A stretch of DNA of 24,460 bases from NCBI GenBank assembly GCA_032358255.1, contig JAULBX010029058.1, positions 1 to 24,460 on the forward strand, given 5' to 3'. The notes under the pieces are model-generated. The model worked only from the letters and a program-made list of their open reading frames with translations, had not been told where the DNA came from and ran no database searches. Of this stretch, positions 1,006 through 22,479 are shown piece after piece. This stretch comes from Heterotrichella gracilis (lineage: Eukaryota; Sar; Xanthophyceae; Tribonematales; Xanthonemataceae). Position 1 is the first letter of the stretch; every line of letters begins with the position of its first letter. A program made the translations under genes and the position numbers.

Positions 1006-3177
1006 ATGTTTTCCACACGGTTGCTCAGCTCCTCGTTGTCGCTGCACGTGCCTGCCTGTACCAGCCGTGGGAGGAGGGCTGCAGCAGCCATCAGGGTGCA
1101 TGCAGAGTACAATGGCACCGAGTACAACGGCAACACGTATGACTCTCCACTCCCAGGTATGCACCACTGGTTCTTTCAGACTTCCTTCAGCACTGTGACA
1201 TGATCGAGGCATAGAGCTCTTCACGGTACTTGATTACACCTCCGAACATGTGGGTGTGTTGGCTGGTGGTGACTAACAGATTGTTATTGGGCGGCAGTGG
1301 GTGAGAGGCTTCAAAAGCTGTTCAGGAGCCCGTTCGACGTGGTAGCCCTGGGGCCAAGGGCGACAGCCGGGGTCATGCAGGTGTTTCCAGAGCTCATGGA
1401 GAACATGTAAGCGCTCATACATGGAGAGCATGCATGCATACTGCCTCTTGAATTGCACCCACATGGGCAACCCTTACACGCCATCCTTGGTGCTGCAGGC
1501 AAGCTGACTTTGACAAGCTGAGCATGCTGGTGCAAGACCCAAGACCGCTGGAAGAGAAGCAGAAAGTCGTTGCAGAGGCAGGGGACGCATGAAAGCCAAT
1601 CTGTTCACCTGTAGTCTGTGTTGGTTATTTGGTCACCCACTCAATCAGCCACATACACCGTTCCTAAGGCGACTCTGGAATACTTTGTCGCAAAATGTTT
1701 GTGGATCTTAACAGTCCAGGCCTCGGTTGGCGACTTTGAAACATGCGCCTGTACCCAACAAGGCTGCGCAGCGTGTGCCAAGTGTAATACCCCCCTGCAG
1801 GAGATCGAAACCAGGCTGGTGGACATCCTGGAGCGCGGTGTCAAGGTGGAGCGCGACCTGTTTGCACAGATCAAGCCCTTCATCCCGGCTGACCTGCAGC
1901 CCCTCATCCCACAAGAGCTCCAAGAAGCAATCGACGCAGCCAGCGTGGCGGCAGCCGAGGAGGAGTGGCGGGTGCAGGAGGAGGAGGACAAGGCGGTGTA
2001 CACCAACTTCTCCAGCTCAGCCATTGCTGCCAGCCAAGCGGGTGCGTGCGCATGTCTGGGCATTAGCTATGGCACGCACAGTGTGAATAGGGTTTAGAGT
2101 TAGGAACATGGCGGCATGATTAGGTTTTTAGATTTAGGCAGATGGCGCCGCCGAAGAGAAGTGGCAGTTGCAGGAGGAGGAGATTGATCCCTTCCATCAT
2201 CACAGGGCGGTGTGCACAAACTTCTCCAGCCCAGCTATTGCTGCCAGCCAAGCGGGTACGCGCAGATTGCTGTGCAACACAGTGGTGACCACGGCATTCA
2301 CGGTGGATTAGGGTTTAGGGTTTAGGTAAGGGTAGCAGCAGTGGGGGACTTGCAAAAGCATATAGAAGAGGACAAGGCGGTGACGCAAAAACCCTTTTAG
2401 ATATGCAATCGCAATCGCATGTAGTCAAGCGGCAGGTGACGGTTTCTCATGGGGTAACGCATTGTAAGCCATGCTTGGGCATTGGAGGGCATTTTGTCAC
2501 CGCGTACGCCAGTTGCAGACCTATCCTCATGCCCTCAACCCATTTTGCAGCTGCTGAGATGGTAGAGATCAAGGAGCGGGTCACCATCCTCACTGAGGCA
2601 ATCACCTCGCTGCGCACAAATGTGGATACCTCCCAGGTGGCTATGCTGCGCCTGAACCTCAAGGTGCGTGGGGTATCCATGTTAGCACATGCACCTAGCT
2701 CATGTGATACACCTGCTCATCAGATGCATGCAGCCATATGAGCTGGATGGGTGCAAAACAACAGGGGCACTTCTTTCTGGTGCTGTCAGCTCTGCATGAG
2801 TTTGTTGATCACGGATGCCAGCATCAATGAAGCTGCACATTGCACGGCGTTGGCATGTGCGTGTACCCATACATGCGCGCATACATTGGCGTTTCCTGCC
2901 CATTGCACTGTCATGCTCGCACAGTCCTCTGGCCAACCCATCCTGATCATGGACATCATCAATGACCCATCAGCCGATCCCTTCCGATCACAAAGGTACA
3001 GAGATGCATCACATGTGTGTTGGCTTGCAGGAGTCCAAGGATGGCCTTGTCCGGATACTGAACCAAATCAACCCCAGCACGATGGATGTGAGCGACGTGC
3101 CGCTGCAGGCAGCGATTGATGAAGCTGTCCAACTAGTTGTTGAAGTGGACACCATGCTTGCTGCCAAGTCAACCTAG
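1006..3177 (+). CDS. unrecognised helical protein, probably chloroplast-targeted (6 exons)
   Basis: Model: 1006-1156, 1298-1406, 1499-1577, 1801-2041, 2551-2663, 3031-3177; 279 residues, all phases closing, stop TAG. I do not recognise the family. The first ~33 residues (MFSTRLLSSSLSLHVPACTS..., rich in S, R and A, no acidic residues, ending VHA before an acidic stretch) look like a plastid transit peptide. The rest is highly charged and probably mostly helical: exon 2 contains FRSPFDVVALGPRATAGVM, exon 4 contains EIETRLVDILERGVKVERDL and then a P/L-rich turn (PFIPADLQPLIPQEL), and exons 5-6 (AAEMVEIKERVTIL, ESKDGLVRILNQINP) could form a coiled coil. No enzyme motif or membrane span is evident. 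The junction after exon 3 is the weakest: the best in-frame donor is a GC (GAG|GCAGGG), with AAA|GTCGTT at 1565 as the GT alternative that would remove four residues. Intron 4 carries a copy of the end of exon 4. Confidence 0.72.
2088..2140 (+). repeat. interstitial telomere-like motifs near the donor of intron 4
   Basis: TAGGGTTTAGAG begins 46 nt after the exon 4 donor and is followed by degenerate TAGG and TTTAGG words to about 2140. The G-rich strand is the sense strand. It lies between exon 4 and the decoy copy of its 3' edge. Confidence 0.6.
2144..2260 (+). repeat. decoy copy of the 3' end of exon 4, inside intron 4
   Basis: This stretch resembles 1949-2048, the end of exon 4 plus its donor. 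The last ~55 bases, from GGCGGTGT to the donor, differ at only about five positions. The donor GTGCGT is preserved as GTACGC. The copy has a ~23-bp insertion (ending in CAG at 2205) in place of the GGACAA before the conserved block. A third fragment (GAAGAGGACAAGGCGGTG) lies at 2365-2382. Used as a 50-nt exon from 2206 it would shift the frame, so it is probably not a productive exon. Confidence 0.8.
2307..2332 (+). repeat. interstitial telomeric repeat in intron 4
   Basis: GATTAGGGTTTAGGGTTTAGG is three near-perfect units of the plant-type telomere repeat. It lies directly between the decoy exon copy (2144-2260) and a shorter third fragment at 2365-2382. Confidence 0.85.
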
Positions 3178-3592
3178 ATGCGTCTACATGGCTGATACAG
3201 CAGCCTTGATGCTCGATTGAAGGGATTTTTTGTGTCTGTTCCTGCCCTTTCCCACTGTGGTATTACTTGCAATTGCTGGTTCAGAATGATCACTCATTGC
3301 AAGTTGTTGCAACCTCCATCTATGACTGCCACGGCACCCTTGCGCAAGTACTTGTCAACATTGATTGCGCCACTGAGGCACACAGCCAGCCTGCCCTTTG
3401 ATGGATTGAAAATGGCTTCTTCAAAGTAGTAATACACGCATCAAAACTAATACACACGTCGCGATCAAGGTGGCAAACTTGAAGGGAAATGGTGCATCAT
3501 TGAGCTCCGAAACCCTGGGCCAATTGGGCCAACTGTATTGCAGGCACATTAAACGTTAAACGTGCAATGTTTGCACCATGCATGGGCACTCT

Positions 3593-3597
3593 TGTAA
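3593..3597 (+). terminator. candidate poly(A) signal TGTAA of the first gene
   Basis: This is the first TGTAA after the stop at 3177, 416 nt downstream. A second one at 3686-3690 sits inside a hairpin. TGTAA is the typical chlorophyte polyadenylation signal; the distance matches that seen for other genes in the window. Confidence 0.45.
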
Positions 3598-3630
3598 GAA
3601 AATTGGCTAGTATATGATCTTCCTATTTAG

Positions 3631-3710
3631 TTGCATATATATGCAAGCCCAGCCTGGCACCGTATATTATTGCTGCAACAATCGTTGTAATAAGCAATAA
3701 GCCAGCTGGG
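3631..3710. other. perfect palindrome followed by a multi-tier hairpin
   Basis: TTGCATATATATGCAA (3631-3646) is a perfect 16-bp palindrome. Immediately after it, 3648-3710 can fold in tiers: CCCAGC-TGGC with GCCAGCTGGG (one bulged C), then TTATTGCT with AGCAATAA, then CAAC-AATC-GTTG at the tip. A TGTAA lies on the right side of the tip. The position is beyond the probable 3' end of the + strand gene, so it may be an RNA structure near the end or a MITE remnant. Confidence 0.5.
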
Positions 3711-3831
3711 GTCCCATCATGATGATCAGGTCGAGCTACGGATCTTCAAGACATTGTCAGGTTGTCCATAAATTAACTTTGGGTCCACGATCCACATCGA
3801 CGCTGCACATTGTACAGCTGGGGATAATCCT

Positions 3832-3836
3832 TTACA
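3832..3836 (-). terminator. candidate poly(A) signal TGTAA of the DNAJC21 gene
   Basis: This is the first TGTAA on the - strand after the stop at 4316, 480 nt downstream. It lies beyond the + strand gene's candidate signals at 3593 and 3686, so the two transcripts would nearly meet but not overlap. Confidence 0.4.
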
Positions 3837-4315
3837 CTAGGGTCATGCTGTCATAGTAGCAGACCAAGTGCAAATCCACGCTCACAAAATCTGCATTTAA
3901 TGACTCGCTGCAATCACTTATTAATTAATCACCTAGAAATGCAATAGCTGCTGTCTGAGACTCAGTGATTCATCTATCTGCAATATCAACGCGGCAACTC
4001 AGGTAATGCAATCCTCCCAGGACCGAGGGGAGCAGACGGGGTTGCATTGGGAGGTCCCTCCGAGACTGGGAGGTCCAGGAATGTATTGAATCAATTTCAA
4101 ATTAATGCTGGCACTGCCAAGTTAGTAAATCCTGGCAACTTGAAGTTTGCCGGCAGTCTGACTGTGCGTGTTCAAACTGCATGCCACGCAGCATTCTATT
4201 AGCAATATTCCTGATTGCTGCCCATCAATTGTGCACATGGTTGCCTTGCCATGGCATGCCACGTCACAGCCCCTCAGATACCCCAGGCTGCCAGGGCAAT
4301 TGCAACACTGGGTGA

Positions 4316-7300
4316 CTAAGACTTGAGCACGGCGTGGCCTGTTTCAGCCACGTGTTTAAACAGCTTGGTGCGTGACGGGAAGGCCTGGCCACACACACCG
4401 CACGAGGTGGACTTGGGATCCACCTCAACCCCAGCGGCTGCTGCCTTGCCAGCCTGCCTCTGCTTGCGCTTGTCGCGCTTGCTGCTGCCAGCTGGTGCTG
4501 GTGGTTGTACAGGTGCGGGTGTGGGTGCAGGCTGTGGTTTCCGCTTGGCCTCCGCTCCTTGGGGTTTCCGCTTGGCATCTGGCTGGGGTTTCCGCTTCGC
4601 CTTGGAGCCCCGTTTGGTGTTCCCCCAGTCTTCATCGCTATCTGCACGACAGGGAACAACAGTTTTGATGATAGGCATGGTCAGGAGGGTCATGCCATTC
4701 CCTTTGCTAGAACACAGGCCGCGTAGCTACTTTGAAACTTTGTTAAAGAACATACGTCATCCAGGGTAGAGATTTTCCGCTCTGCTGGGTGTATGCATCC
4801 GAGCGCTGAAAGCTCACGACACACTGCCTGCCATGATTTTCAATGCAACAATGTGTGGCTCCAGCGCTGCAGCAAGCATGCCATGTACCTTACACAGTGT
4901 ATGACATGCATCACCAGCGGGCACGTCCATGTGTTGCACAGGCAATAAAAACGTGTGCACCGCCTGCATTACCTTCTGACAGCTGCAGCCCCGCCACCGC
5001 TGCCGCAGCCTCACTGGCACTCGGCTGGGCGTCCCCTTGGCTCTGCAACTCCTCATCCCCGTCCCCAACTCTATCCCCATCCCCAACGCTGTCCCCTTCC
5101 CCAGCAGTGCTGCCTGGCTCATCATCGCTGTTGCCCTCCTCCCCACTCCCATCTGCTGCATCGCCTTCCCCATCATCCCCGTCACCAGCACCACCAGGGC
5201 CATCTCCACCCTCCTGCCGAGGTGAAACCTCGTCATCTGACGTGGACGCCGCATGATTGGCTGCCGCACGCGAGGCCATGAGCCGCGCCAGCATCTCCTC
5301 GTCGTCAAGCTCGCCACCATTATCTGAAGCAACACCAAGAGAAGTAAAATTAGATGATTGAACATTATATTATCTATCTAGATTAATTTATAATGATTAT
5401 TATAGTAATCTGGCTGTATTGCTGAAATGCATGTAACTAACTAACTAACTAAATAACGATAATAGTGATACCAATCAAGTAAGGGATGGACACGTAGCAA
5501 GTTGAAAGGCGCATTTAAAAGAGGAGCTAATCACTAGGGGGGCACTACCCTCCTGTTCACTGTGTCCCTTACCATCTGACTCATCATCACTGCTGGCTCC
5601 TCCTTCATTGCCTGCTGCATGCGTTCTTTCTTCTGCACGGGATAATGACTCCCTTCCTTCCTGTCCATCGCCACTGACAGAAACATCGTCCCCAGATTCC
5701 ACCCCACTGATGCCATGCTCGCCATCCACACTGACAGAATCATCACTGGCATCTGCCTGCAGGTGCGCAAAGGACCCCCTCCCCTGCTCGGGGATGGCCT
5801 CCTCCTCACTCTCCGAGTCTGACACAGCAGCTGGTACCGCCACTGGTACCGCATGCGCCTGCCTCCCCTTGCCCTTCTTTTTCTTCTTCCCCTTGGACCG
5901 TGGCGCAGGCGAAACCTCCTCCTCCTGGCCGCTGCTACTGGGCTGCTGGTGGGTGGGCGAGGCAAGGGCAGCCTCCTCCTCCTCTAACATTGCCCTCAGA
6001 GCAGCGACAGCCTCCAGGTGCTTTTTCGACCTGGGTTTAGGGTCCAGGTTCAGGTTTTGACGACATCAACGATTTGGGCAGGGTGGCAGTGGAAATTGAG
6101 CAATATTATTGGATCTGAGGTGGCATGGCAACAATGTAATGAAATGGATGGCCACGCCTAACGCTTCGCCCCGCCAGAATGATGCGCAATGAGCAGTAAC
6201 CACAATGCACCCAGGGGGACGTTGGGTATTAACAATTTGGATACGCAGGGCCTGAGAAGGTACTGCTTACTTACATGCATACAGCATGGCAGCCAGATGG
6301 GCAGTAGGCCCTGGTCAAGGCCTTGCACATCTGGATGTGATGCTGAATGCATGTAATTGACTACAAGTTCAACAAGTGAATGCACTGGAAGGCATGTGCT
6401 GCAGGCATCAGCACACAGCTGCCACACCCCGCCGCGCACCTCTCGTGGTTTGCCAGCGCCTTGTCGCTCTTGAACACCTTGTCGCACAGCTCACAGCTGT
6501 ACAGGGGCACCTCCGCCACCTCCTCCTCCTCCGATTCTTCACTTTCGTTCCCCCCCTGCACTATCCACGCAGCCTCCTTGTACTGAAGCGCCTTGGCAAT
6601 GAGCTCCTGGCGAACCCGCTCGCGCCTGCAAGGGGCGGAAATGGATGCGGTAATGGTGGTGGTGTATTAAAAATGGGTCGGTGGTGGCGTGTGGGGGGGG
6701 CGGGGGCAATGGGGTGGATGGGGTGCAATGTGCTCCCGGCAGTCCTGTACGGCCTGCAAGGTTGGGAAACGTGGCGGAGGCAGATGCGCACTGTATGGTG
6801 GCAGTGGGTGGAACCATGGGTTGCAATGAGCTCCCGGCAAGTCCGGTCGCGCCTGCAAGGGTTGACAAATGGTGGTGGGAGACAGTATTGAAGGACCCAT
6901 GTGCACACTACAGGTGCAATCAATTGCCCTGCTCATCCCAGGTTTGGAAAAACCACTCTGCGCAATCAACATGAGAAGCCCTAGGCCCTAAACCCTAAGC
7001 AGCCCCTCCCGAACCCCACCTCTCCATCTCCTCCCGCTCCTTCACCGCCCGCTTGTGCGCCTCCTCCGCCTGGTGCGCAGCCACACGCTTGTCGCGCTTC
7101 TTCAGGAAGGCAACCAGCGCACGCACCCCGTCGTTGTACTCGCGCTTGGCAGCCTTGCGAGCCTTCTTGTTCTCGTCCTCCATGGCGCGGCGCACCTGGA
7201 GACAGAAAAGGTGGATCTTTCTGAAAACCTTTCTTGCAGTTTTGCTTGCTTTGTGACCCTTACCAGCACTAAACATTGCAAATCTTACAAAAGAGTAAAC

Positions 7301-9571
7301 AGCAACAGCAGCCAAAGCAGCACCAGTGGGGGCATGCATCCCACAGAGGCTTTGCAATTGATCCCAGTCCCAGGCATCAGGCTGGAACCCTGATCAGGTG
7401 CACATGGGGTGCATGTGGTCCCGCTTGTTTTAGAGTATGGGCTTCACATGGCCGCATACGGCTCACCTGGCAATTCAGGCCTGAAACGGGTTCAGGTTTT
7501 AGGATTTTAGGGTGGTGGGCATCATGTGGCTGCATGTGACTCACCTGGCGGTTAGGTGCAGAAGCTGGGTTGTACTTGTCTGCCCAGGCAAACTCCTTGT
7601 AGGTGGTGAAATCGATCCAATAGGAATAGAAGGCAGCCACCTCGGGCCACGGAGAGGTGCTGCTGCCTGTGCAGGGGGGATTGTGCAGGCGGTGGGTGCA
7701 CCAGGGATGTGACATGGCATGGCATGGCATGACATGGGTGTAAGGATCAACTATAGCTCCATGTAGCAGGTCTAAGTCTGAACACTACACTGCATTCATG
7801 TCCGCTAATTATGTCAATGAGTGAGTTAAGCAGTTCGTTATCCACTGTTATTTGCGACACATGCTGTGCTTAACAAATGCACTCCACATTCTGCAAGCAT
7901 GGACCCGCAACATGCATATCGTGCGTGCATGCACCTCTCAAGGACGCGATCCTTCTGCACCAGAGCCCACGCCATGGATCATGCAAAACGGCCATGCCGT
8001 GCAGCCATGCACCTCCAAATAGCCATGCGGTGCAACGCAGGCAGCGGCCTTCCACGCACCCCAACCTACACAGCCTTGCAGGGCCATGGGTCTGCCAAAA
8101 AACCTAAACCCTAAAACAGTCATGTGCTAAGCAGGCACCTCTCCTGCATGTTAAACCCTAAATCTGAGACATCTATGCAGTGCAAAGCCAGGGTCTTGCC
8201 ACGCACCAAAGCTGGGTATGCTAGGCGCATGGCGGCCAGTGCCCGTCCGCTCCCACGCTGCCCGCTCCTGCCTGCCCATGGTCTCAAACAGCTGGTGGTA
8301 CACAGTGTAGAAGCCCTGGGATGTGCCACAGTGGATTTATCCAAATACTTGAGCATTAACACCAGGGATGTGCCGCGCTCATGCACCACAGATTTAGGCA
8401 CCACAGCCAAATGTACTAAATAATGACACTAGTTGATTTATAACATGAATTGAAATAAAATGTCATGTGAAACTGAAATGGAGTGAAATGCTTGAGATGA
8501 AGGCAGCAGGTACCAGGAGCAGTTGCAGGTTTACCTTGGGCCCATCATTGTATCCCGAGAAGGCGCTTGGGGTGAAGTAGGCGTACAGGTCTGGCTCGTC
8601 CGCTGGTTTCTGTGGGGTGTCGTATCCTGAGCTGCCTGCCTGGTGCCGCTCATCGGAGCGCAGGATGGACTCCCGGTGCGAGTCATACCTGACAGCGTGA
8701 GAACAGGGCTTGAGCACCCCAGACATAGTAGTGCCAGAAAAGTGTTGAGTAGCATATGCCGGTGCGCACCGCACGCTGGCGGAAGCCTGGCTGTATTGCT
8801 GCAACTGTCTGACTAGGTTTTGCACACCAACCCGTCACGTCAATGGACCGTATGGCAAGCTATGGCAGGTGGGTGTTGATACAGGTAGTATGGTGGGTGG
8901 TGCATTCCCGGTGGACCGACGCTGGGAGCTGTTATGACCCACAGCCAGTATTCCAGTTGTAGGATCCCACTCACCAGGCTCGCTCCTGCTGGTCACTGAG
9001 CACCTCGTATGCGTTTTGAATCTCCTTGAACCGCGTGTCTGCCTCCTCCTTGCGGTGCTGGTTCTTGTCTACAACGGGGGCAATGACTCAGCACCAGCCA
9101 TATCGTCGACGGTGACACTAGGGTACGGTGTGAACCAGAAATAGTTGCTGTTTACAAAGCCAGTGGCAGTACTGTTGTCTATAGTTGGGCACAAGAACGA
9201 TACATCGCCACAAGCACCTGTTGTGTGTGTGCATTGCTGCAAGTAGACAAGACTACTGCAACCAGCTGGTTCTAGTACACAGTGAGGCGACAAAAGCAAA
9301 CACCAGAAACAACGGTTGTCAACAAGCCAGTGGCCCTGGTCTACAGTGGCGGCAACAGGGCACTGCCAGAGCAAAGGTTGTATCCACATGGGGTCCCTAT
9401 ACTTACTCACCACCACCAGCACGGGACCACTACCTTCAGCACAGGTTAGGTGAGAGATTGGTACTCACCTGGATGCCATTCGAGAGCAGCCTTTCTGTAC
9501 GCCCGTTTGATGTCAGACTCCTCGAGGGCAGCCTCCCTTTCCAGCCCCAGCACCTCGTACAGACACCTCAT
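4316..9571 (-). CDS. DNAJC21: DNAJC21/JJJ1-type J-domain zinc-finger protein (10 exons)
   Basis: Model on the - strand: 9571-9469, 9068-8975, 8688-8535, 8315-8207, 7666-7545, 7195-7020, 6625-6440, 6030-5573, 5323-4973, 4641-4316; 692 residues, all phases closing, stop TAG. In yeast and man this family (Jjj1, DNAJC21) stimulates Hsp70 to release export and maturation factors from cytosolic pre-60S ribosomes. The N-terminus ([10 protein letters not shown]...) is a J domain with HPD at 33-35. Then come the family blocks [32 protein letters not shown] and the basic helix [20 protein letters not shown]...[12 protein letters not shown]. Two C2H2 fingers of identical spacing (C-x2-C-x12-H-x5-H) follow: C297/C300/H313/H319 and C665/C668/H681/H687. 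Between them is a long acidic, Ser/Glu/Asp/Gly-rich linker (exons 8 and 9), which makes the protein longer than human DNAJC21 (531). The C-terminus HAVLKS closes the second finger, as in the family. It is convergent with the gene before it and divergent from the one after. Confidence 0.93.
5434..5452. repeat. TAAC microsatellite in DNAJC21 intron 8
   Basis: About four and a half units of TAAC (CTAACTAACTAACTAA) lie in the intron between exons 9 and 8. No other structure is evident in this intron. Confidence 0.75.
6033..6042 (-). repeat. telomere-like motif at the acceptor of intron 7
   Basis: The + strand reads GGGTTTAGGG. On the sense strand this is CCCTAAACCC followed by AG, so the telomere word runs directly into the splice acceptor of exon 8 (exon starts at 6030). 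Confidence 0.6.
6727..6875 (-). repeat. two decoy copies of the 5' edge of exon 7, inside intron 6
   Basis: The acceptor and start of exon 7 (about 6598-6650) recur at 6727-6777 and 6825-6875. All three share AATGnGCTCCnGGC, then a CGC-or-similar triplet, GCCTGCAAGG and a trailing AAATGG or AAACGTGG. On the sense strand each copy keeps a CTTGCAGG acceptor-like site. The nearer copy is the more diverged. They lie about 100-130 bp apart in G/T-rich intron sequence. Confidence 0.72.
6979..6999 (-). repeat. telomere-like motif near the donor of intron 6
   Basis: The + strand reads CCCTAGGCCCTAAACCCTAA, so the G-rich strand is sense. It begins about 21 nt inside the intron from the donor at 7019. 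Confidence 0.75.
7445..7512 (-). repeat. decoy copy of the exon 5 donor edge with telomere-like spacer, in intron 5
   Basis: 7445-7480 resembles 7520-7560, which spans the end of exon 5 and its donor. Both have CATnTGGCnGCAT, then CTCACCTGGC and a related tail. Between copy and source lies TTTTAGGATTTTAGGG (7496-7512), a degenerate telomere motif. Identity is only about 70 percent, so this is one of the weaker cases. Confidence 0.5.
8103..8163 (-). repeat. two telomere-like motifs near the donor of intron 4
   Basis: CCTAAACCCTAAAA at 8103-8116 and TAAACCCTAAAT at 8152-8163 lie 40-105 nt inside the intron from the exon 4 donor (exon ends at 8207). The G-rich strand is sense. A weak copy of the exon 4 donor edge (CTTCCACGCACC against CTTGCCACGCACC) sits on the far side at about 8050. 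Confidence 0.6.
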
Positions 9572-11257: not shown

Positions 11258-11262
11258 TTACA
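11258..11262 (-). terminator. candidate poly(A) signal TGTAA of the PRC-barrel gene
   Basis: This is the first TGTAA on the - strand after the stop at 11674, 412 nt downstream, close to the distance seen for the other genes. Confidence 0.45.
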
Positions 11263-11673: not shown

Positions 11674-14600
11674 TCATACATCAAAATTGTCAGACAGTGG
11701 GCGCTTGGCCCCCGGCCGGTACCCCTGCCCTTCCCTAGCCTGCGGCGGGGGACCACGCGCATCCCCAACAGGCCTCGCCCCTTCCCTGGGGCCCGCACCA
11801 CCTTGGTTCACATCCCAGCCGCTGCCGCCATCCCGAGGCCCCACTCGACCACGAGCATCCACAGACCTGGGAGGTTGCCGGTTCAATCCACCTGCCCCCG
11901 ACGCCCCCCTCAACTGCGCCTCATCCCCACCTCCCCGCGCACCACCCCCTTGCATGCCCCCTTGACTCTCCCTCTCCCTGCCACCCGGCTGGGCAGACCG
12001 GCTAACATTAACCCTGCCCTCCACCCCCGTACCCCCCCCTCGGGGGTCCCCCACCCCACCCCGCTGCCCAGGCCCGCCCCGCGCATCCCCCCACCGCCCC
12101 TCAAGATCCGCCTCGTAGCTGGTTCGGTCAAAATTGAGAGACTCCGGCCCAGTCTGCCCTGCGGGCTGGTATGCCATGGCATCGTAGCGTGTGCTGGCGG
12201 GTTCAGAGGCGTACATGGGCTGCCTGGCCTGTTCCTGCTCGACTATCCATTGGTCAAAGCTGACCCCCTGCGGCTGTTGCTGCTGCTGGGGCTGCTGGGA
12301 GGCGGCTGGGGGGGGCCTTTCGCCAAACTGGCCGTCGGCGTCTTTTCGCCTGCGGTGGGATGATGGGGGTGGGTGGGGCAATGGGTGCAAGGGGTGGCTG
12401 GCAGCTAGCACCACCAGCATTCCATGGATGGGACGATGCGGTCTGGCCTTGCAAATTGCAAAGGTCATCTGCACAGGTCATAGTGCCATGCATGGTGGTT
12501 TGTTGCCAACCGGCATGCCATACATGGCATGCCAGAGTTCGGTATGCCAGATGGCCAGTGCATGTGAAATTTGGGATTGCATTGTCCGAAATGAGCAGTT
12601 GAGGATCGATAACATTCAGGCCCTCCAACCAATCTGTGCACCCCTTGTTCTACCACAACTATCTGGTTATCAAACACAGATGTGAATTTGAGTGAGCAGG
12701 CTATTCCGCCTTACTGACATGCATGCAGCACAAAAGCACAAGCCACACACCTGTAGGGCGGCTGCGGCTGGCGGTTGATAATAGGGATGCCAGATGTGCC
12801 CGGCTGTCCCTCCATCGGTGCCTGGTCCCGATTAGCCCTGCACCGCATCCCAGGATTGTCAAATGCTGTGCCACATTTTCAAGGACAAGCTGCACGTGCA
12901 TGCACCCCAGCCAGGATGGGATGACACAGCTCTATCAAGCCAGCCAGTGCCTTGCCGGGCATTGACACAGCCGCGCACCCAACTTGGTCACTAGACGTGT
13001 AGGGGTATCCCAACGGGGGGGCCTCCATCCCGCACAACCCACACAGCCATGAATGCCGCCATGCACCAATGCACCATTTCATGATTGCTGGCGATGAAAT
13101 GCACCTGCCCAGCTCGGGGTATTAATATTTCCCGGGTTATGCACGCATGGACCCTCCCACGCACCTGAAGCGAGGGTCCCGCATGGCCTCAGGCCGGCGC
13201 ACGCGCTGCTGGCGGGGCGGCTCCCCCGCGACAGGCCCCTGGCGCTGGTCCACGCGCGCCGAGAAGTCCCTGTCGCGGGGAGGGGGCAGCTCCCTTTGCT
13301 GCTGCTGCTGCTGTGGCTTCATGGCTGCAACGCTCGGCGGGTCCTGACGGCAGCAGGGGAAATGTATCACAATCATGCTTCCTGTGCCATCCTGACGATG
13401 CGCCTTGCATGGCGTGCGAACGCCAACTCAGCCGCGCCGGTGGTAAGGGGTCCCCCGTTTTAATCCAGCCAACGTACAGCCGCGGGTGCATGGGTGGTAG
13501 GAATGCACCATACTGCAACGTGATGCACTCCTCCCCACACACCTACCACAGGAGCCAAAAAGACCACGCGCTAGTTGTGCACATGCGCTCCATCCACTCT
13601 CGCCCCCCAGCCCCGCACCCTGCCACAGCAAAAACGCCTCTCCACTCCATACCCATGCACGTGTGCTCAATCCTCCCCCACCTCTCTCCAAGCCACCCTA
13701 CCCCACACCAAACCCCGCACCTGGCCATAGAATGAGCGCCACTCTTCGCCATACTGGCGCTCCCAGTCCTCCAGCTTCTGCTTGTACTCCTGCATGTAGG
13801 GGTCGTTCTCCTCCACGAGGTCGGCGCCGGTCACTATCCCGGACAGCGCGTCCCAGGCGGTGTCGATGATGCCGTCGCTCTCCTTCACAATGCGCCTGAG
13901 GGAAGTGGCGCACACCTTGATTTGGGATTTAAGGTGTAGAGTTTAGGGTTTGTAAACCCCCCAAATTACCCACACGTTTTGCGGCATGGCGCAGACTGTT
14001 GTGTAGGATTAAGGCAGCAGGGGTTGGTGATCAGCGAGATCAAATGGAATTTTGTTCGTTCTTTATAATCCCCATGCACCACCCCACCACCACCACCACC
14101 ACCGCCGCCACCATCATTGTCACCGCCACCACCACCACCGCGACCACCATTACCACCACGCCCACCTGTCTGCCTCCGCGCGCAGCACCACCTTTGAGCT
14201 TGATGCAGAGCGCACAAGGTCGGTGCGCACCGAGTAGACACTGACCAAGCGATCGGGGATGGAGGGTATGCCGTACTTGTCGTACTTGATGGTAGCGATG
14301 CGGCCGCTGTCGGGGCTGAACTCAAAGTCTCGCACCTGCGGTTACAATGTAGGGTCTGAGGGATGGGTGTTAGGGTTTAGGGTTTGCGTGTAGGGTGGGT
14401 GGCTGTCGAGGCTGAGCTCACAGTCATGCACCTCTGTTGCGGCACCTTAGGGTGGGAGACTGGTGGGGGTGTTGAGTGGGGTTTAGCCACCAAGGTGGTG
14501 GGTGGCTGTGGTAGAGGGCATGGCATGTTTTCCTGGCCGTTTCGCGGGGCAGCGAGTGGTGCAACGCATGCAGGAAGATGAAGACATAGATGATTATGGT

Positions 14601-15943
14601 CATGAATGCAAATATGTGAAATGTGAAGGGTATGGAGGGCATGGAGTATAGAAGAGGGTCTACAACCCTAAAACCCTACAATGCCCACTCGCTGCTCATG
14701 CCCTGTCTCCAGCACCGCCCCCATCAGCTTGCAGAACTCAGCGCATGCATGCATACAAAACTGACAATGATCATGACTGTGAATAAGACATGGACATTAG
14801 ATGATACTGGGCAAGGAGTCAAGGGTCTGAGTTAGGGTTTCCTACCCTTTACCCTGGCGCTGTCCATACTCCGTCTCCACCGCCGCCCCCACCAGCTTGC
14901 AGTACCCCAGCGCATGCATGGATACTAAGCTGACAATGATCATGACTATGACTATACATGGACAGTAGAAGACACTTGGCAAGAAGTTGAGGGTCTGAAT
15001 TAGGGTTACTCTATACCCTACACCCTACACCCTACACCCTACACCCTACACCCTACCTTGCCCAGGCGCTGCCCATACTCCGTCTCCACCACCGCCCCCA
15101 CCAACTTGCAGTACCCCAGCGCCTCGTTGGCATCCTCATCAAACAGCGCATTGTCATCGTGCACAAGCACCACGTCACCGATCTGGCGCAGGCTGCTGAG
15201 CAGGATGTTTTCATCGGCGCTGGTGGCAAGCTGGCTGCCCTTGAGGTCCAGGGAGACCACGTCTAGGGTTCGCGGGTCCACAAAGAGCTGGCACACGTAG
15301 CCTAGGGACTTGCCGTCGGTGCGGGTGACCACCTGGGGATGGGTGGGTGGGATGGGTTAGATGAGAGGTGCATTGCATGACGGGTTGGATGAGAGGGGCA
15401 GTGCGTTGTGCAAAGCACTAAGGGTTTCTAACGTTTTAGATACGTGCCTCCGGTGCTCCTGACAATGATGCGGGTGACTTCTTGTTGAGGGGTGGGCGGC
15501 CGGATGGTGACTGGGTGGTTTGAACGAGCACCAGGCCTCTGGACACTCCTGAGTCAACCATGCATATAGACGACTCGGTTTCCAGTTGTTGGCCCCACCC
15601 TTACCTGCTTGTTCATCAGGATGGAGCGTGGCACGTACACCTCATCGGGGGGTTGCTGTGGCTGTGGCTGCGGTACCCTCTGTAAGGGGGCTGGGCCCCT
15701 GCTGCTGCTGGGGAGGGGGCTCCTGTTGCTGATGGGCGGTTGCTGCTGTTGTTGAGGGCTGCTGCTGTTGCTGTACCTACTGCTGCACACAAGGCTGTGG
15801 CGCTGGGTGACTACCCTCTGACGGACGAGGAAAGGCAGACGAGTTGGCCTGCTGAGCAACGGTGCAGGGATGCCTGTGGTTTGTTGTAGAGTAGGGTGGC
15901 TGCATGCTGCAGCGCATGTGAGGGACATGGCTGCAGGGGACAT
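11674..15943 (-). CDS. chloroplast double PRC-barrel protein with disordered tail (7 exons)
   Basis: Model on the - strand: 15943-15605, 15332-15057, 14335-14166, 13895-13721, 13343-13165, 12837-12751, 12349-11674; 633 residues, all phases closing, stop TGA. Residues 1 to ~75 (MSPAAMSLTCAAACSHPTLQ..., rich in S, T, R and P and almost without acidic residues) form a likely transit peptide; ATG 15928 is the alternative start. Two PRC-barrel repeats follow: about 100-175 (SILMNKQVVTRTDGKSLGYV ... LLSSLRQIGDVVLVHDD) and about 190-262 (LVGAVVETEYGQRLGKVRDF ... SIPDRLVSVYSV). The same two-barrel order, with the blocks SSxRQIGDV and IPDxxxSxY, occurs in a cyanobacterial family, so a plastid-endosymbiont origin is likely. 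Exon 4 adds a helical segment (RIVKESDGIIDTAWDALSGI ... YKQKLEDWERQYGEEWRSFY). From about residue 322 the protein is low complexity: poly-Q, then G/R/P/Q-rich with RGGG repeats. PRC-barrels occur in photosynthetic reaction-centre subunit H and the RNA-processing factor RimM; the role here is unknown. Confidence 0.85.
13941..13951 (-). repeat. telomere-like motif near the acceptor of intron 3
   Basis: The + strand GTTTAGGGTTT gives AAACCCTAAAC on the sense strand, about 45 nt upstream of the exon 4 acceptor (exon starts at 13895). This is a usual branch-point distance. Confidence 0.6.
14077..14165 (-). repeat. CCA/TGG microsatellite abutting the intron 3 donor
   Basis: About 90 bp of imperfect CCA (sense TGG) triplets, with GCC and ATT interruptions, run directly up to the donor of exon 3 (exon ends at 14166). 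The sense strand of the intron therefore starts GTGGGCGTGGTGG and continues G-rich. Confidence 0.85.
14370..14385 (-). repeat. telomeric repeat near the acceptor of intron 2
   Basis: The + strand TTAGGGTTTAGGGTTT gives CCCTAAACCCTAA on the sense strand, about 35-50 nt upstream of the exon 3 acceptor (exon starts at 14335). It contains a CTAAC branch-point-like word and separates exon 3 from the decoy copy at 14401-14442. Confidence 0.75.
14401..14442 (-). repeat. decoy copy of the 5' edge of exon 3, inside intron 2
   Basis: 14401-14442 resembles 14306-14341, the start of exon 3 with its acceptor. The best 32 bases (GCTGTCGnGGCTGAnCTCA...GCACCT) differ at about five positions. It lies ~95 bp upstream of the real acceptor in transcript terms, with telomere repeats between. 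Confidence 0.72.
14701..14913 (-). repeat. two decoy copies of the 3' edge of exon 2, in tandem inside intron 2
   Basis: 14852-14913 matches 15061-15122 (the last ~62 bases of exon 2) with about four mismatches. A shorter, more diverged copy lies at 14701-14744. The landmark CAGCTTGCAG/CAACTTGCAG is at 14725, 14893 and 15102. The two intronic units also share the intervening ~90 bp (CTGACAATGATCATGACT and GGGTCTGAnTTAGGGTT), so the repeat unit is exon edge plus spacer plus telomere motif, period 168 bp. Confidence 0.88.
15016..15057 (-). repeat. six-unit telomere-like array forming the intron 2 donor
   Basis: Six consecutive 7-mers (CCCTACA five times, then CCCTACC) end exactly at the exon 2 border. 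On the sense strand the intron begins GTAGGGTGTAGGGTGTAGGG, so the first unit supplies the donor GTAGGG and the last base of the exon. Confidence 0.85.
15467..15509 (-). repeat. possible decoy copy of the 5' edge of exon 2, inside intron 1
   Basis: 15467-15509 resembles 15320-15360 (start of exon 2 with its acceptor): GnTGCGGGTGAC, then TGnnGAGGGGTGGG-like sequence and GGATGG. The real site is followed by a small tandem duplication (GGGTTnGATGAGAGG at about 15354 and 15382) and a degenerate TAAGGGTTT at about 15419. Similarity is modest. Confidence 0.4.
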
Positions 15944-16217: not shown

Positions 16218-16220
16218 CAA

Positions 16221-16735: not shown

Positions 16736-17258
16736 TTGATCAGTATCTAGCACTAGTGGTGCTAGTCTATGTTGCGCTTCTCCGTCTGGAACAAGCTCTG
16801 AGATTGAAGACGGCGCTGCAGGAGCGATGGCGGGAGGGGTTATACACAGCGGCACCCCATTGCGGTATGGCTTGATGTGCAATTGCATAGTGGAGGTCTC
16901 ACTGTTGGTAGGGGTGCCCAGTGTGTTTAATTAAGTTTTGACAGGACCATGCCGGGGTACACACAGCAAGCTACAGTGAAACAGTGCTTCCAGTGTTGTT
17001 GAGCCACCTTCTGATGTATAAAGTCGCAAACAACCTAGTTGACCTTGTGAAAGTACTGTACCCACACTTAGCCTGAGAGGAGGGAGTTTACCACAGTTAC
17101 AGGTCAAATCCAAAATAAACTCTTGTCCACACTACCTTGCACAACGGCAAATTCAGCGGCAACTTCAGCTTCAGTCCATATCCTAAGGGTATCTACACAC
17201 TAAATAAAGGTGGGTGCTACCTAGTGTGCTACATCGTTATTTCAATAAGGCATTGCGT

Positions 17259-17370
17259 CTTACAGGATCAAAAGGTGCTGTACTTGGAAGTGAGCTACAG
17301 CCTAGCAACACTAAAAAGCACTACAGGCTGTGGCTCACTTCCAGGTACAGCACCGATTAAAATTTGTAAG
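17259..17370 (+). ncRNA. candidate hairpin RNA (miRNA-precursor-like foldback)
   Basis: 17274-17303 pairs with 17325-17354 in an uninterrupted 30-bp stem around a ~21-nt loop. Of the 30 pairs, 28 are Watson-Crick and the other two (17284:17344 and 17296:17332) are T/G, that is G-U pairs if the + strand is transcribed and A/C mismatches on the other strand. Outside the stem, a 9/10-nt internal loop is flanked by a second short pairing, CTTACA (17259-17264) with TGTAAG (17365-17370). No coding context is evident. The shape fits an algal miRNA precursor, but a small MITE-like element with inverted arms is a real alternative. Confidence 0.45.
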
Positions 17371-17652
17371 GGGCCAACGGTGTAGCACACTGAATACCAC
17401 CCATCCACCTTCATGTGTAGGTTTCCGAAAGGCTATGGCAGAATGTATATTATGTAATACAGGTCTGAACGACGGTCTTGGTCACACCGGAACTAGACCT
17501 TTGGTTCTCGGACCTGGCTGTGCCCAGAACGATCGAGTCAAAGGTCTTTTTCATGCAAAAGAATACAGACCAATCTAAGACGATCCCCTATCCCCGGATC
17601 TAGAAGTGCCTACCTAAGGTCTAATTCCCAAAACTGTGTCCAAACCCCAGAA

Positions 17653-17740
17653 TCTATACAGGAGGGGTAAAAAGCTTGATGCAGCTGCTCAAACAGTCTA
17701 TACAGGAGGGGTAAAAAGCTTCAGACAGCTGCTCAAATTA
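17653..17740. repeat. 44-bp direct tandem repeat, two copies
   Basis: Two adjacent 44-bp units begin at 17653 and 17697. The first 25 bases (from TCTATACAGGAGGGGTAAAA on) are identical and CAGCTGCTCAAA is also kept; four bases in between differ. The period is not a multiple of three, which argues against a coding repeat. Confidence 0.85.
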
Positions 17741-18462
17741 CGAGAAAAAAAGTGCAGGAAGCAAGAAGAACTGGGACTGTATGTTATGGGTACTACTGCG
17801 TATGCTCAGGGTGTCGTCGGTGACTTCAAGTCCTCCTCTTCGCTTTCAAACACGGTTGAAAGCATGCTGAGACTCCCGACAGCCTTGCCCTTCAGCTTCT
17901 TGCTGCCTCTTGTCAGGGTGCCCCTGGTGAGACACACAGCCACACATTCAATATCACTGGTCCATCGGCACAACGGGCACAAGGGTTCTGTGTGGGGTAT
18001 CAAGGTTAGCGCACACCCCTATTTCTGATCTTCTTAACAGACGTGGGCAACAGAGCTAAAGTGACAAAGTAAGGGACATTGGGCTCAGCTCAATTGGGAC
18101 ATATAGGACGTTTGCAGAACGCCCAGCGTCCTAAATGTATGCTGTTTGTTAGAGTAGAGGGGGCAAACAGAGTAGGTAAGCCAAGGGCCACGTGGGCAGT
18201 CGCCTTATCCAGCAGGACCTCAAGTCGCATAGGATCAATACGGTAGGTGGTATATACAGTGCCAGGAAACACCTGCTTGGCGCCGCACGTGCAAGACTGA
18301 TTGCTTCCGGCGGTATTGCGAGAATGCATGTACCAACTAACTACTGGCACAAACTCGGCCGAGCTCCCAGGCAAAAAAGCAGATCTTGCCCTTGAATGTG
18401 GCGTGCTCAAGTACTACTGACCTGTTGCTGGAGGATGTCAACTTGGAAATCTCCGCCGCCAC

Positions 18463-19002
18463 CTAGTCCAAAGCTCCTGGTGGACCGTTGACCGTTGCCG
18501 CTGCCAAGGCCTGAACCAGCGCATCATGGGACCCTGCAATACAGAGATACGTAAGCAGGCACTTTGCAGGGAAAGGAATTGTCATGTTCAGCAACGAGTG
18601 TTTTGATACAGTGGAGTCTTGAGGGAAAGCACTCTAGACAGCAGGGCCGATACTTTTTTTAATAGCACCGCTGAGAACAACTGCTCTCAAAGGGGCAAGG
18701 GGCGGTGTTGCGCGGTGCTGTGCATAGGTGATATGCAACCTGGACAGTTACTCACCAGGAGTGTCCGCTCTGCTAGTTGCCAGATCCACTATCTCCAGTC
18801 TCAAGTCATTGGGGAGCGCTGCATAGTACAGTTGCCACTGGGTTGGGGTCAGCTCCCCCACCTCCTTATCAAACAGCCCAAGGCGAACCTTTTGCTTCGT
18901 GGTAAACGTGTCATCGGCCAGCAAGCTGTCGACATAGGCCCTAACGACGGGGTCCTTTGGCACCGAGGAACCACTGTCTTTCCTATTAAGCGTCCAATTC
19001 AT
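18463..19002 (-). CDS. unrecognised small protein (2 exons)
   Basis: Model on the - strand: 19002-18756, 18533-18463; 105 residues, stop TAG, with a GTGAGT donor and an ATTGCAG acceptor. I do not recognise it. The core KDPVVRAYVDSLLADDTF ... QKVRLGLFDKEVGELTPTQW ... YYAALPNDLRLEIVDLATSR reads as compact soluble helical protein with normal composition, unlike the surrounding junk frames. The short second exon (DALVQALAAATVNGPPGALD) closes it. The start is uncertain: an in-frame ATG at 19080 would add 26 residues, or the coding part may begin after an acceptor-like AG near 18983 as an exon of a longer gene. No TGTAA occurs within about 1 kb downstream, unlike the other genes, which lowers confidence. 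Confidence 0.5.
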
Positions 19003-20036
19003 ACCGGTGGTGATCCCACTGTGCCTGGGTAGGGTGCAGTGCCCACCCAGTGGAGGAGACTGGATGGCGTTTGTAAGCACAGATGCAATGCCCGGGTTGG
19101 AAGAAGGGGGTTTGCACGCTCAGTAGGGGCGAAACCTGGCAAGGACGCTGTGGAGCCTGTATCAAGTGGGCCTAACGCTGAGGGGAGCACTCACAAGTGG
19201 GGTCACGGCAAGACACTTCAAGGCAGTAATTACCAGCTCCTAAGTGATGATAAAACATATTATGCATCACTGGCTGTTGAACTGGTATCACGGTACAGAT
19301 TTTTGGCACACTGTATGCATGCATTAACTTGTGCGGCATGCATTCACTTGTAATGCATGCATGCATGCACTGTACAGGATGACGCGTAACGAGCTGTGGG
19401 GCACTTGCTCATGCAGCATGATATGCTGAAAAGCAACAAAATCACCGGGCCGCCCTGTACGCGAGTGAAGCAAGCCTTGTAGCTGGTATCTCTGACAGGG
19501 TGTTTGCTCTTTCCACCCAAAAGAGGGCAAGGGAGAAACACGCGAGTATGGATGAAAACACCCTACTTTGTCCACTCCGCTTTGCAGTGTACGCCCTGCT
19601 GGTCTCACTTTGTGCCCTGGTGTCCTCGTCGCGAGTGTCCGCGGCAGGCTAGTCTGCAGTTGCGCCCCAGTCGCGTTGCGCCCCAGCCTTACAATGCATG
19701 CAAACAGCAGCGTTCACACAGGCACAGCCCACCACTATTGCGTTCCGTGGAAACTATACCTGCAGAAGGCTGACCACTGAAGGCTGGCCACTAACTGTTG
19801 GAACACAAGACGCCGTGCATACAGTGGTTTCTAGTATTACCACATTGGACTGGTGAAAAGGTGGCTACACCATGCGTCTCGGCGCAAACCAGGCAGCAAG
19901 TGGCGCTGCTTCTTGCAGTTACAAAGGGCCATGCTTTCGACGTAAAACCAGTGCAACACACCACCATTGCCCTCACAAGCACCAGCTTCGCCACAGCCAG
20001 CAGCAGTGGTGCTGCCCAAAAGCACCTCCACCCGCC
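19003..20036. other. upstream region between divergent genes
   Basis: This ~1 kb separates the small - strand gene from the cis-prenyltransferase. It contains a cluster of TGCATGCA words (19314-19370) and the second copy of the dispersed repeat. No separate gene is visible. Frames on the - strand at 19791-20159 are shadows of the prenyltransferase N-terminus. Confidence 0.4.
19428..19916 (+). repeat. dispersed repeat, copy 2 (~0.5 kb)
   Basis: This copy is collinear with 16221-16735 (shared blocks listed there). Its right end, GGCGCTGCTTCTTG, lies inside the open frame upstream of the cis-prenyltransferase, so the most upstream in-frame ATG of that gene (19872) is repeat-derived. Confidence 0.8.
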
Positions 20037-22479
20037 ATGCCACCCACCACCGCTTGCAGCAGCAGCCAGAGCAACAGCGCCACCACCTCCACTACTTCTC
20101 GCACACAACAAAGAAGCAGAAGGGGAACGACACCCAGCACCACCATCAATCACAGCCACAGCAGCAGACCCACACGCACCACCACCACCTCCTGTAGCAG
20201 CAACAGCAGTGGCAGCACAGCCACTTTGAGGAGCGAACCCCTAGGCCTACACCCTAGCAAGCTGCCCAAGCATGTGGCTATCATCATGGATGGCAACGCC
20301 CGCTGGGCAAAGCAGCAAGGGAGGGACTTTACATATGGTCACCACAAGGGGGTGGAATCGCTCAAGGCAACGGTGCAATGCTGCCTGGACTGGGGCATAC
20401 CATGCCTAACGGTGAGTGCCATGCTCAGATATGCAGCACGCATGCACAGCTTGACACTGAGACCGTGGCACCAAGTCACGTCTCCATGCTACTTGGATGC
20501 ACCCCCATGATCCCACCGCCCTCATTGCGCAACTGGGTTCCTGTTGAACACACCTCGACCTGCCTGCAAACCCCCTTATAACCTGCAAAAATGTGGCTCC
20601 ATCTTGCCTCCTTGCCAATCCTTCCCAGTGTGATACCCCACCAACAACCCCACAACCCCACCTACAATGACGCCCTACCTGGCCACCACCCCACCAACAA
20701 CTCCACCCCACCCCACCCATACCGCCGCCCCCACCAACCCACCCCTGGCCCAGGTGTTTGCCTTCTCTACGGAGAACTGGTCCCGCCCACGCCCCGAGGT
20801 TGACTTCCTGCTGTCGCTCATCGAGCGGGTGGTGGCGGATGAGGTGCGGGAGCTGCACCGCAAGGGGGTGGCGCTGCACTTTATAGGCAATTTGGCGGAC
20901 CTGCCCCCCTCGCTGCGACACACCATGCTGAGGTGCGGGATTCGGAACCACTTTGGCTGGGGGGTGGGTGTGTGGCCATGCAACGGGGGGTTTGGGGTGT
21001 AGCGCTTTGGGGAGAGTGTGTAGGGCGGTGGCCGAGGAGGAGGGGGAGCTGCTGGTAGGGTTTAGGGTTAGGGTGGTGGCTGAGGAGGAGGAAAGCTGCT
21101 GTTAAGGGTTTAGGGTTTAGGGTGGTGGCTGAGGAGGAGGGGAGCTGCACAGCCAGTGGGTGGCACTGCGTCTTACAGGCAATCTGCCCTCTTCACTGCG
21201 ACACACCATGCTCAGGTGTGCGTTTGTGCATGGTGGACATGGGCATGTGGTGTAGCATGGAGTTGTGCATGTGACACCACATGCAGCACGCAGGATGGTG
21301 GTGGGCATGGCGTGAGATCGTGATTTGCCGGGGTGGGCACATGCACTAGGCATGGGAGATGTGGCTGGGGATTGGGGTGGGCAGGTGATAGGTGTGATGC
21401 ACGTGGTTTGGGTCAGGGGCAGCGACTATGCCAACAAATAATGTTAGTATATCCCTGCGTGGGTAAAGGGTGTGCACATGCAGTGGGCGTATGCATAGGG
21501 ATCAGGATGGTATTGGGCATGGAAATCCTTGATCGGGATGCAATATGCAGTGGGCAAGTGGCTTGGATTGGGGGGCCAGGCATGTGGTATGGGGTGGGGA
21601 GGGCACATGCGGTAGAGGAGGACAGCGGTCGAGCATGTAGCCCCCATCCATCTGCCTGCATTTGCCCCAACACATGATGCACCATGCGACGCCGGCAAAC
21701 CCTAATTTGCAGGCCCAGCAACATGACCCTAAACCCTAACCGCTGAACCCTCCCCGCTCCCGTGCAGCGCCGGGCAGCTGACCGCCGTCAACAGCGCCCT
21801 GCACCTGACGCTTGCGGTGAACTACTCTGGTCGCCAGGACCTGACCCGGGTTGCGCAGCTCATTGCACAGCTGGCGGCACAGGGGGAGCTGCACCCATCA
21901 GAGGTGGGTGGGCTGAGCTGCTTGGGTATACTGCCAGTGTGTCCACGGGTGATTACTAGTATGGGCACGGGTGATCACTAGCTTGGGCACGATTGATCAC
22001 CATCATGAGCTCTGTTGATCATCAACATGCGCACTGCCGATCACCGCCGATCATCGCATGGGCACGGATGATTAATGCATCTCCCCGACCATAGCACACG
22101 GCCATGCGTAGGTCGCCCAGGAGCTCCTCCCCAACCCTAGACCCTAAACCCTGGTATGAAAAGCCTAAATGTGCCCCCGCCACAGGTGTCCCAGGAGCTC
22201 GTCTCGGACCTCCTGTCCACCTGCTGCCTACCACACGACTGGCGGGACCCAGACCTACTCATTCGCACCAGCGGGGAACAGCGAGTCAGCAACTTCCTGC
22301 TGTGGGAGGCCGCATACGCAGAGATGTACTTCACACCCACCTGCTGGCCTGAGTTTGGCGAGGAGCATTTGAGGCAGGCGCTGGCGCACTATGCAGCCCG
22401 CAGCCGCAGGTTTGGGGGCCGGCCGGAAGGGGCGGGGCAGTGGGTGGGGGCGGGGGTGGGGGCGCTGCGTGGGGAGTGA
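20037..22479 (+). CDS. UPPS: cis-prenyltransferase, undecaprenyl diphosphate synthase type (4 exons)
   Basis: Model: 20037-20411, 20754-20932, 21768-21903, 22186-22479; 327 residues, all phases closing, stop TGA. The family adds isopentenyl diphosphate to an allylic diphosphate in cis to make polyprenyl diphosphates (dolichol, plastid or short-chain cis-prenyls). Conserved regions are complete: [16 protein letters not shown] with the diphosphate-binding Asp85, GHHKG (101-105), [22 protein letters not shown], and [20 protein letters not shown] (256-275) followed by [10 protein letters not shown]. This is the bacterial/plastid homodimeric type, with the catalytic RxSGEQR motif in the same chain, not the NgBR partner type. 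The first ~65 residues are Ser/Thr/Arg/His-rich with no acidic residue, a likely plastid transit peptide. The ATG at 20037 has a good context (CCCGCCATG). An in-frame ATG at 19872 would add 55 residues, but lies in a dispersed repeat. The last ~25 residues are a G-rich low-complexity tail. Introns 2 and 3 hold decoy exon copies. Confidence 0.93.
21021..21218 (+). repeat. three decoy copies of the 3' part of exon 2, inside intron 2
   Basis: Exon 2 sequence 20828-20936 recurs in pieces. The block GTGGTGGCnGAnGAGGnG...GAGCTGC appears at 21021-21055, 21071-21102 and 21121-21152, each pair separated by TTTAGGG repeats at a ~48-bp spacing. The third copy continues (with a short deletion) through CACTGCGACACACCATGCTnAG to a donor-like GTGTGC at 21218. 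Its TATAGGCAAT has become TACAGGCAAT, which makes an acceptor-like CAG; the 37-nt exon so formed would shift the frame. Confidence 0.85.
21056..21122 (+). repeat. telomeric repeat blocks in intron 2 (G-rich sense)
   Basis: TAGGGTTTAGGGTTAGGG (21056-21073) and AAGGGTTTAGGGTTTAGGG (21103-21122) are separated by one decoy exon copy. Both are in the donor half of the intron and both have the G-rich strand as sense. Confidence 0.85.
21697..21742 (+). repeat. telomeric repeats and decoy exon 3 edge near the acceptor of intron 2
   Basis: AAACCCTAA (21697-21705) and CCCTAAACCCTAACC (21728-21742) flank 21706-21727, whose TTTGCAGGCCC...GACC resembles the acceptor and start of exon 3 (GTGCAGCGCC...GACC). 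The C-rich strand is sense. CTAAC lies ~30 nt before the real acceptor of exon 3 (21768), a good branch-point distance. The exon-edge resemblance is short and could be chance. Confidence 0.6.
21939..22079 (+). repeat. degenerate ~22-bp minisatellite in intron 3
   Basis: About six degenerate units of the form TGGGCACGGGTGATCACTAG run through the intron. The recurring core is GATCAC or GATCATC preceded by GCAC. The units are not coding; one is elongated by an internal GCCGATCA duplication. Confidence 0.75.
22107..22153 (+). repeat. decoy copy of the exon 4 acceptor edge plus telomeric motif, in intron 3
   Basis: 22107-22134 (GTAGGTCGCCCAGGAGCTCC...) resembles 22182-22209 (ACAGGTGTCCCAGGAGCTCG...), the acceptor and first bases of exon 4. 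It is followed by CCCTAGACCCTAAACCC (22135-22151), which lies ~35-50 nt before the real acceptor. Confidence 0.7.

Follow-up and report, generated by a model that had tools for sequence, protein, structure and literature searches.

The window analysed here, a stretch of 24,460 nucleotides that is one complete contig (C653) of the 68.5-Mb assembly of the xanthophycean alga Heterotrichella gracilis, contains predicted genes for a zuotin-like protein and a PRC-barrel protein on the minus strand and for a prenyltransferase on the plus strand, with short blocks of the telomere-type words TTTAGGG and CCCTAAA in their introns. When ten reading frames of the window were compared with Pfam, three scored above the cut-off (PRC, and prenyltransferase twice), one lay below it (the zuotin domain) and six gave no match; the PRC-barrel exon, used as a protein query, found no homologue, and a plasmid search returned no match.

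The gene models were computed, without RNA, by a gene finder self-trained on 200 kb of contig C2 (the sample) together with the window, and some of the copies described below may be called exons. Starting from generic GTRAG and CAG profiles, training led to the donor CAG/GTGAGT and the acceptor YYGCAG/G, and at the setting used afterwards the models comprise 297 introns with a median of 293 bp; the block results agree at three gene-start penalties. Given that the noncoding model is identical for both strands and that the splice profiles cover only six intron bases, the finder was not built to favour either orientation of a telomeric word. Its errors include a false exon piece at about 16802-16951 of contig C2, in a predicted ABC1 kinase gene, and the models probably also call intergenic stretches intron. 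Of ten sample exons compared with Pfam, six had no match and four exceeded the cut-off (ABC1, two decarboxylase domains and a LysR substrate domain), and the best named homologues of the ABC1 kinase are green algal (Micractinium, Sanguina, Tetradesmus). The LysR substrate-binding domain (PF03466, E 1.5e-14), which is usually bacterial or plastid, lies in a predicted minus-strand exon of an intron-bearing gene (C2 165811-166107; L047:5811-6107), and two adjacent predicted genes at C2 318-12989 (L031-L032) appear by eye, from their translations, to be F-box/leucine-rich-repeat-like with internal duplications.

A preliminary description of the window had reported that the G-rich strand of the blocks is sense near donors (G-sense) and the C-rich strand near acceptors (C-sense). 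The blocks and the associated copies are as follows.

2088..2095, plus strand: G-sense block between exon copies 1946-2062 and 2143-2276, flank homology score 97
2308..2326, plus strand: G-sense block, absent from the preliminary description; the donor of the second exon copy lies 60 nt away
6036..6043, minus strand: C-sense block 9 nt from a predicted acceptor of the zuotin-like gene
6986..6998, minus strand: G-sense block 28 nt from a donor
7506..7513, minus strand: C-sense block 35 nt from a donor, an exception to the polarity
8106..8162, minus strand: two G-sense blocks, one 49 nt and the other 96 nt from a donor
13942..13951, minus strand: C-sense block 51 nt from an acceptor
14370..14385, minus strand: C-sense block lying between the direct copies 14306-14337 and 14402-14433, 42 nt from an acceptor
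14690..14998, minus strand: two 141-bp copies, 14690-14830 and 14858-14998, 82% identical
14849..15122, minus strand: exon-edge copy, the edge 15058-15122 being copied at 14849-14913 (92%)
20831..21218, plus strand: exon-end copy, the prenyltransferase exon end 20831-20935 being copied into the intron at 21124-21218
21056..21123, plus strand: 48-bp units of exon-like sequence with two G-sense blocks, 21056-21074 and 21105-21123, between them
21697..21739, plus strand: two C-sense blocks, 35-67 nt from an acceptor
22133..22152, plus strand: C-sense block 43 nt from an acceptor

Likewise new are a C-sense block at 15421 (91 nt from an acceptor), interior intronic blocks at 2389, 14447 and 14832 (C-sense) and at 14664 (G-sense), and a word at 23696 inside a doubtful predicted intron of 1759 bp. 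The block at 14832-14840 sits at the seam of the 141-bp copies, 1 bp off the left copy, and the spacer of the 14849..15122 copies holds the block 15000-15007 and a TACACCC array at 15011-15056. This array is a telomere-like variant (GGGTGTA) of 6.6 copies, which abuts the donor of the PRC-barrel exon. The minus-strand intron 6626-7019, which holds the block 6986..6998, also has a weak copy of the start of the next exon. Outside introns, words occur at 719, 925 and 3510 (predicted intergenic) and at 15264 (exon).

The window has 14 TTTAGGG against 2.24 expected, a number that none of 100 shuffles reaches; in the 200-kb sample, TAGGGTTT/AAACCCTA is the most over-represented among octamers with at least 40 occurrences (108 against 3.9 expected); and in the whole genome the 14-mer TTTAGGGTTTAGGG has 5629 places in 68.5 Mb against five for the reversed control. 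These are telomere-type repeats at internal sites, as in short interstitial telomeric sequences. Telomeric heptamers are concentrated in predicted introns (506 against 42 expected, 12 times chance), with a smaller excess in predicted exons (55 against 10, 5.4 times) and in predicted intergenic DNA (71 against 26, 2.7 times), so that the near-absence from intergenic DNA claimed for the window fails beyond it. Across C2:1-200000 (L031-L050), the octamers GCATGCAT/ATGCATGC, CATGCATG and TGCATGCA are also over-represented, 4.1-5.7-fold.

TTTAGGG is described as ancestral in green algae in the part of PMC8226300 drawn on here. The word AAACCCTA is identical to the plant telo box (Gaspin 2010, PMC3022908), which is similarly a scattered short motif without long arrays. 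According to the portion of that study used here, telo boxes reach their highest density in 5' UTRs (680 per Mb in Arabidopsis, 312 in rice) and show no enrichment in introns (151 against 155 per Mb for the genome in Arabidopsis, 72 against 81 in rice), whereas the alga has 540 per Mb on both strands (108 in 200 kb), with an intronic excess, a comparison in which the strand basis of the plant counts may differ.

Exon-edge copies and telomeric seams

Direct copies flank 25 of 175 intronic blocks, compared with 34 of 667 control points, and often represent the adjoining exon end including its splice site. On contig C2, for example, copies of 73-74 bp (181168-181241 and 181278-181350) lie around TAGGGTTTGGGGTTTAGGG and 47-bp copies (189609-189655 and 189692-189738) around AAACCCTAAACCTTAAACCCT, and at another locus (L028) about three telomeric units are flanked by 26-bp copies.

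With telomeric words masked, a search for direct duplications (copies of 25 bp or more, identity of 70% or more, spacers of up to 150 bp) yielded 44 pairs in 224 kb, of which 40 are in introns, and 39 of the 44 touch a predicted exon, an upper figure because the gene models may call some copies exons. Once the four pairs whose spacer midpoint falls outside an intron had been set aside, the remaining 40 intronic spacers included 21 with a telomeric word. A null drawn at matched splice-site distances from other introns, of up to 1500 bp, gave 6.4 +/- 2.3, and none of 1000 draws reached 21. In the sample only, without the window in which the idea of a telomeric seam arose, 17 of 35 spacers have a telomeric word against 5.5 +/- 2.1 (the highest of 1000 draws being 13). 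The nine 6-mers with the largest spacer excess consist of seven telomeric words and two near variants (CAAACC and AACCCC). The offsets of the duplications are uneven, with 22 of 44 between 76 and 122 bp (C2:1-200000 and the window), and several units of donor plus telomeric word recur about 87-110 bp apart in the genome matches inspected by eye.

Copies of an intron's own exon edge were found in 38 of 253 introns of 100 to 1200 bp, and in none of 3036 mismatched tests that used the edges of other genes. They are more frequent in introns with telomeric words (27/102) than in those without (11/151; p=0.0014 within length deciles), and the sample without the window gives 24/90 and 11/140. By length class, only the longest introns show a clear association (12/33 against 4/37, p=0.02), the figures being 13/56 against 5/55 at 250-400 bp (p=0.07) and 2/13 against 2/59 at 100-250 bp (p=0.15). 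The majority of the block-bearing introns (75/102) have no detectable copy.

In the anatomy of the pairs, 24 of 33 copy-block-copy structures have at most 12 bp between the block and a copy edge, nine of them at both edges. With a duplicated target and a filler, such structures show junction changes typical of end joining. This set includes 13 extra loci, also used in the direction test below, which were chosen for holding the telomeric 14-mer and therefore bear on anatomy, not on rates. In ten of the 24 tight pairs, the 30 bp beyond the copies are free of telomeric words; in the other 14 they are not, which suggests that in those cases the block may have belonged to the duplicated unit.

Evidence of such seams also comes from outside the sample. 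Pairs of AGGTRAG 55-85 nt apart number 350 genome-wide, about 2.3-fold more than independence predicts, but this excess was discarded as evidence of tandem duplication, given that the reversed control (103 pairs) exceeds independence about 2.2-fold itself, and it is the telomeric content of the spacer that counts. Among the matches listed (41 of the 350, on contigs C2 to C47), a telomeric word is found in the first 80 nt of 27 of 41, compared with 14 of 92 AGGTRAG sites of the sample and window; the 41 pairs are not all independent, as one locus is counted twice, once per strand, and certain pairs are adjacent units of an array.

The copies appear to leave the protein unchanged where this can be followed. 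The introns of the ABC1 gene at 17324, 17867, 18407 and 20780 carry exon-edge copies and have junctions that are gap-free against P0001 and P0006, so that the copies at four of the five copy-bearing introns are untranslated, and the fifth (20265) falls within a variable stretch of the alignment.

Proposed break repair and the order of events

Tandem duplication by break repair occurs in plants. On a slightly better than even estimate, the alga's blocks represent short interstitial telomeric sequences that served as filler in the repair of DNA breaks. A break with long staggered ends would be filled in, the joint would acquire telomeric sequence by addition or capture, perhaps through telomerase or by copying from telomeres, and sealing of the ends would leave an arrangement of copy, telomeric block and copy, in which the starts of the two copies are 56-291 bp from each other. 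Events within coding exons would mostly be purged by selection, and events that span an exon-intron edge would persist because one copy retains the exon and its splice site while the other is silent in the intron. Survival at exon-intron edges would explain both the intron excess and why blocks of either orientation crowd near splice sites, and the ordinary composition of introns would then account for the sense-strand polarity. Against this account stand the lack of a detectable copy in most block-bearing introns, the restriction of the clear association to the longest introns, the crowding of blocks near donors also where there is no copy, the excess of telomeric words in predicted exons, and the telomeric words beyond the copies in 14 of the 24 tight pairs.

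Both the repair mechanism and the role given to selection are inferences, the events being taken as of the same class as those at certain loci in the horse. Short interstitial telomeric sequences of primates, rodents and horse (PMC7215372) are, as here, short telomeric stretches at internal sites, and, in the part of that account drawn on here, a few horse loci have a direct target duplication ascribed to staggered breaks, with duplication alone marking three of 66 loci and two more found among the complex ones. Telomeric insertions with duplication are thus known but rare in the horse, and the events in the alga would be much commoner and would be seen mainly at exon-intron junctions, where the protein need not change. 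In the same part of that source, introns contain 31% of the human sequences, the share expected of random insertion; the algal blocks differ from these mammalian sequences in being concentrated in introns, clustered at splice sites and often flanked by exon-edge copies. Among the literature matches listed, in which subscription journals are thinly covered, no titles or abstract openings describe telomeric seams in exon-edge duplications.

The order of events might, on the other hand, be the reverse, with intronic telomeric words already in place and fragile (through G-quadruplex formation, replication stalling or microhomology), so that tandem duplications and small arrays arising later would take their breakpoints from them. 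The telomeric words outside the copies in 14 of the 24 tight pairs would fit this, as would arrays with one block per unit (L015, L017 and C2 59119-59373). It would also fit the absence of a preferred side in the direction test: telomerase priming should leave the block abutting one particular side, yet the primer side is nearer in 14 pairs and the other side in 16, with one tie, in a test which left out three of 34 pairs (gaps over 100) and in which copy edges are blurred by decay. We nonetheless hold this order to be rather unlikely, since the block is at the seam only in 10 of the 24 tight pairs and the 12-fold intron excess is left unexplained.

Strand polarity of the intronic blocks

Nine of the ten sites on which the polarity had been proposed lie within predicted introns with the sense described. 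At 15016-15057 there is a variant array of the TGTAGGG type, which is indeed on the sense strand and adjoins a donor but contains no block in the block count, and 7494-7512 stands as an exception to the polarity without being the only one, as the C-sense block 15000-15007 near a donor had gone unlisted. Counted to a distance of 100 nt, the donors of the window have seven G-sense and two C-sense blocks (7506 and 15000-15007), and its acceptors have seven C-sense blocks together with the G-sense block 2088, situated 50 nt from either end of its intron.

The asymmetry persists beyond the window, in the sample and genome-wide, although it is weaker there. Block distances were counted in introns of up to 1200 bp. 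The sample and window together have 57 G-sense and 38 C-sense blocks on the donor side and 25 and 51 on the acceptor side (p=7e-4), and the 200-kb sample without the window has 50 and 34 in donor halves and 22 and 43 in acceptor halves (p=0.003). In the whole genome, telomeric matches within 30 nt after AGGTRAG are 1430 G-sense and 958 C-sense, and those within 30 nt before YYGCAGG are 3055 C-sense and 1569 G-sense, all of these being counts of matches, in which a site with several words is counted repeatedly.

This polarity is a general property of the introns of this genome, which have a G-rich start and a C-rich end, because runs of three or more G or C in introns devoid of telomeric words give the same ratios. 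For introns of 80 to 1200 bp, such runs have a G:C ratio of 380:257 on the donor side and a C:G ratio of 431:213 on the acceptor side, against 54:38 and 51:24 for the telomeric blocks (p=0.91 and 0.90). Six comparisons reveal no orientation bias beyond generic intron composition (p=0.21 to 0.91), including those restricted to 8-100 nt (p=0.59 for donors and 0.49 for acceptors) and to 8-40 nt (p=0.29 and 0.21), and the sample without the window agrees (p=0.72 and 0.89). Orientation is thereby rejected as a telomere-specific signal, and the strand polarity of a motif in introns needs the general G-rich start and C-rich end as its baseline.

G-runs after donors are splicing enhancers in other eukaryotes, and it had been proposed that telomeric DNA is retained in the orientation that helps splicing, with G-runs after donors and CTAAC branch points before acceptors. 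The polarity is real in the sample and the genome, G- and C-runs in general may be under splicing selection, and no hexamer is more enriched downstream of donors than TAGGGT in the word profiles (introns of 80 to 1200 bp, and at least 160 bp in the k-mer part). Given that the polarity is indistinguishable from that of non-telomeric runs, and that C-sense blocks are also enriched near donors (19 of the 43 blocks within 40 nt, the other 24 being G-sense), such retention appears improbable. The words CTAAC, CTGAC, CTAAT and CTGAT peak 20-29 nt before acceptors, as do CTCAC and CTCAT, and the base after CCCTAA differs little between acceptor-proximal sites (A 13, C 9, T 5, G 1) and elsewhere (A 30, C 9, G 7, T 5); on these profiles the blocks may or may not supply branch points.

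Block density reaches 3.4-4.4 per kb in the first 40 intron nucleotides and 2.4-2.7 per kb at 20-60 nt upstream of acceptors, compared with values deep within introns of about 1.2 per kb (donor side) and 1.1-1.8 per kb (acceptor side). It had also been suggested that the G-rich and C-rich repeats at the two ends of an intron pair and bring the splice sites together. G-sense blocks do precede C-sense blocks in 26 pairs against 12 in the reverse order, but this fraction (26/38, or 0.684) is near the 0.670 expected from the separate position biases, and the two orientations share an intron in 16 of 276 cases against 12.8 expected, so a hairpin joining the ends is not supported and is very improbable. 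It is just as improbable that the blocks are the ends of a mobile intron-forming element, despite their abundance in introns and a resemblance to introners (PMC9860276, as far as the part drawn on here goes) in a repeated sequence concentrated there, since the flanking copies are local exon sequence and no element body is shared across loci (0 cross-locus matches among the flanks of 117 intronic blocks against 3 among 117 control points in the 224 kb).

Proposed growth of intron edges

The suggestion that introns arose together with telomeric DNA may be recast, under the break-repair reading, as a growth of intron edges with telomeric blocks, which is preferred because many blocks mark the seams where sequence across an exon edge has been duplicated. 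A published tandem duplication of an intron-exon boundary likewise crosses the boundary and copies splice signals; in that case a new intron was formed, and the part of its abstract drawn on here has no telomeric seam, whereas in the alga existing introns appear to grow. In introns without copies, blocks still number 2.86 per kb within 60 nt of the donor, against 1.03-1.31 further in, and old, decayed events could be the source of this clustering.

More tentatively, as a possibility that falls well short of probable, break repair with telomeric filler that duplicates exon edges may be a main engine of intron growth and turnover in this genome, with the splice site copied and a datable seam left by each event, so that much intron sequence, and perhaps some new introns, would be derived in this way. 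The origin of intron sequence is an open question, and telomeric seams would mark past repairs of breaks. About one in seven of the sample introns retains a copy of its own exon edge and, if this account is true, the growth of introns would be readable event by event.
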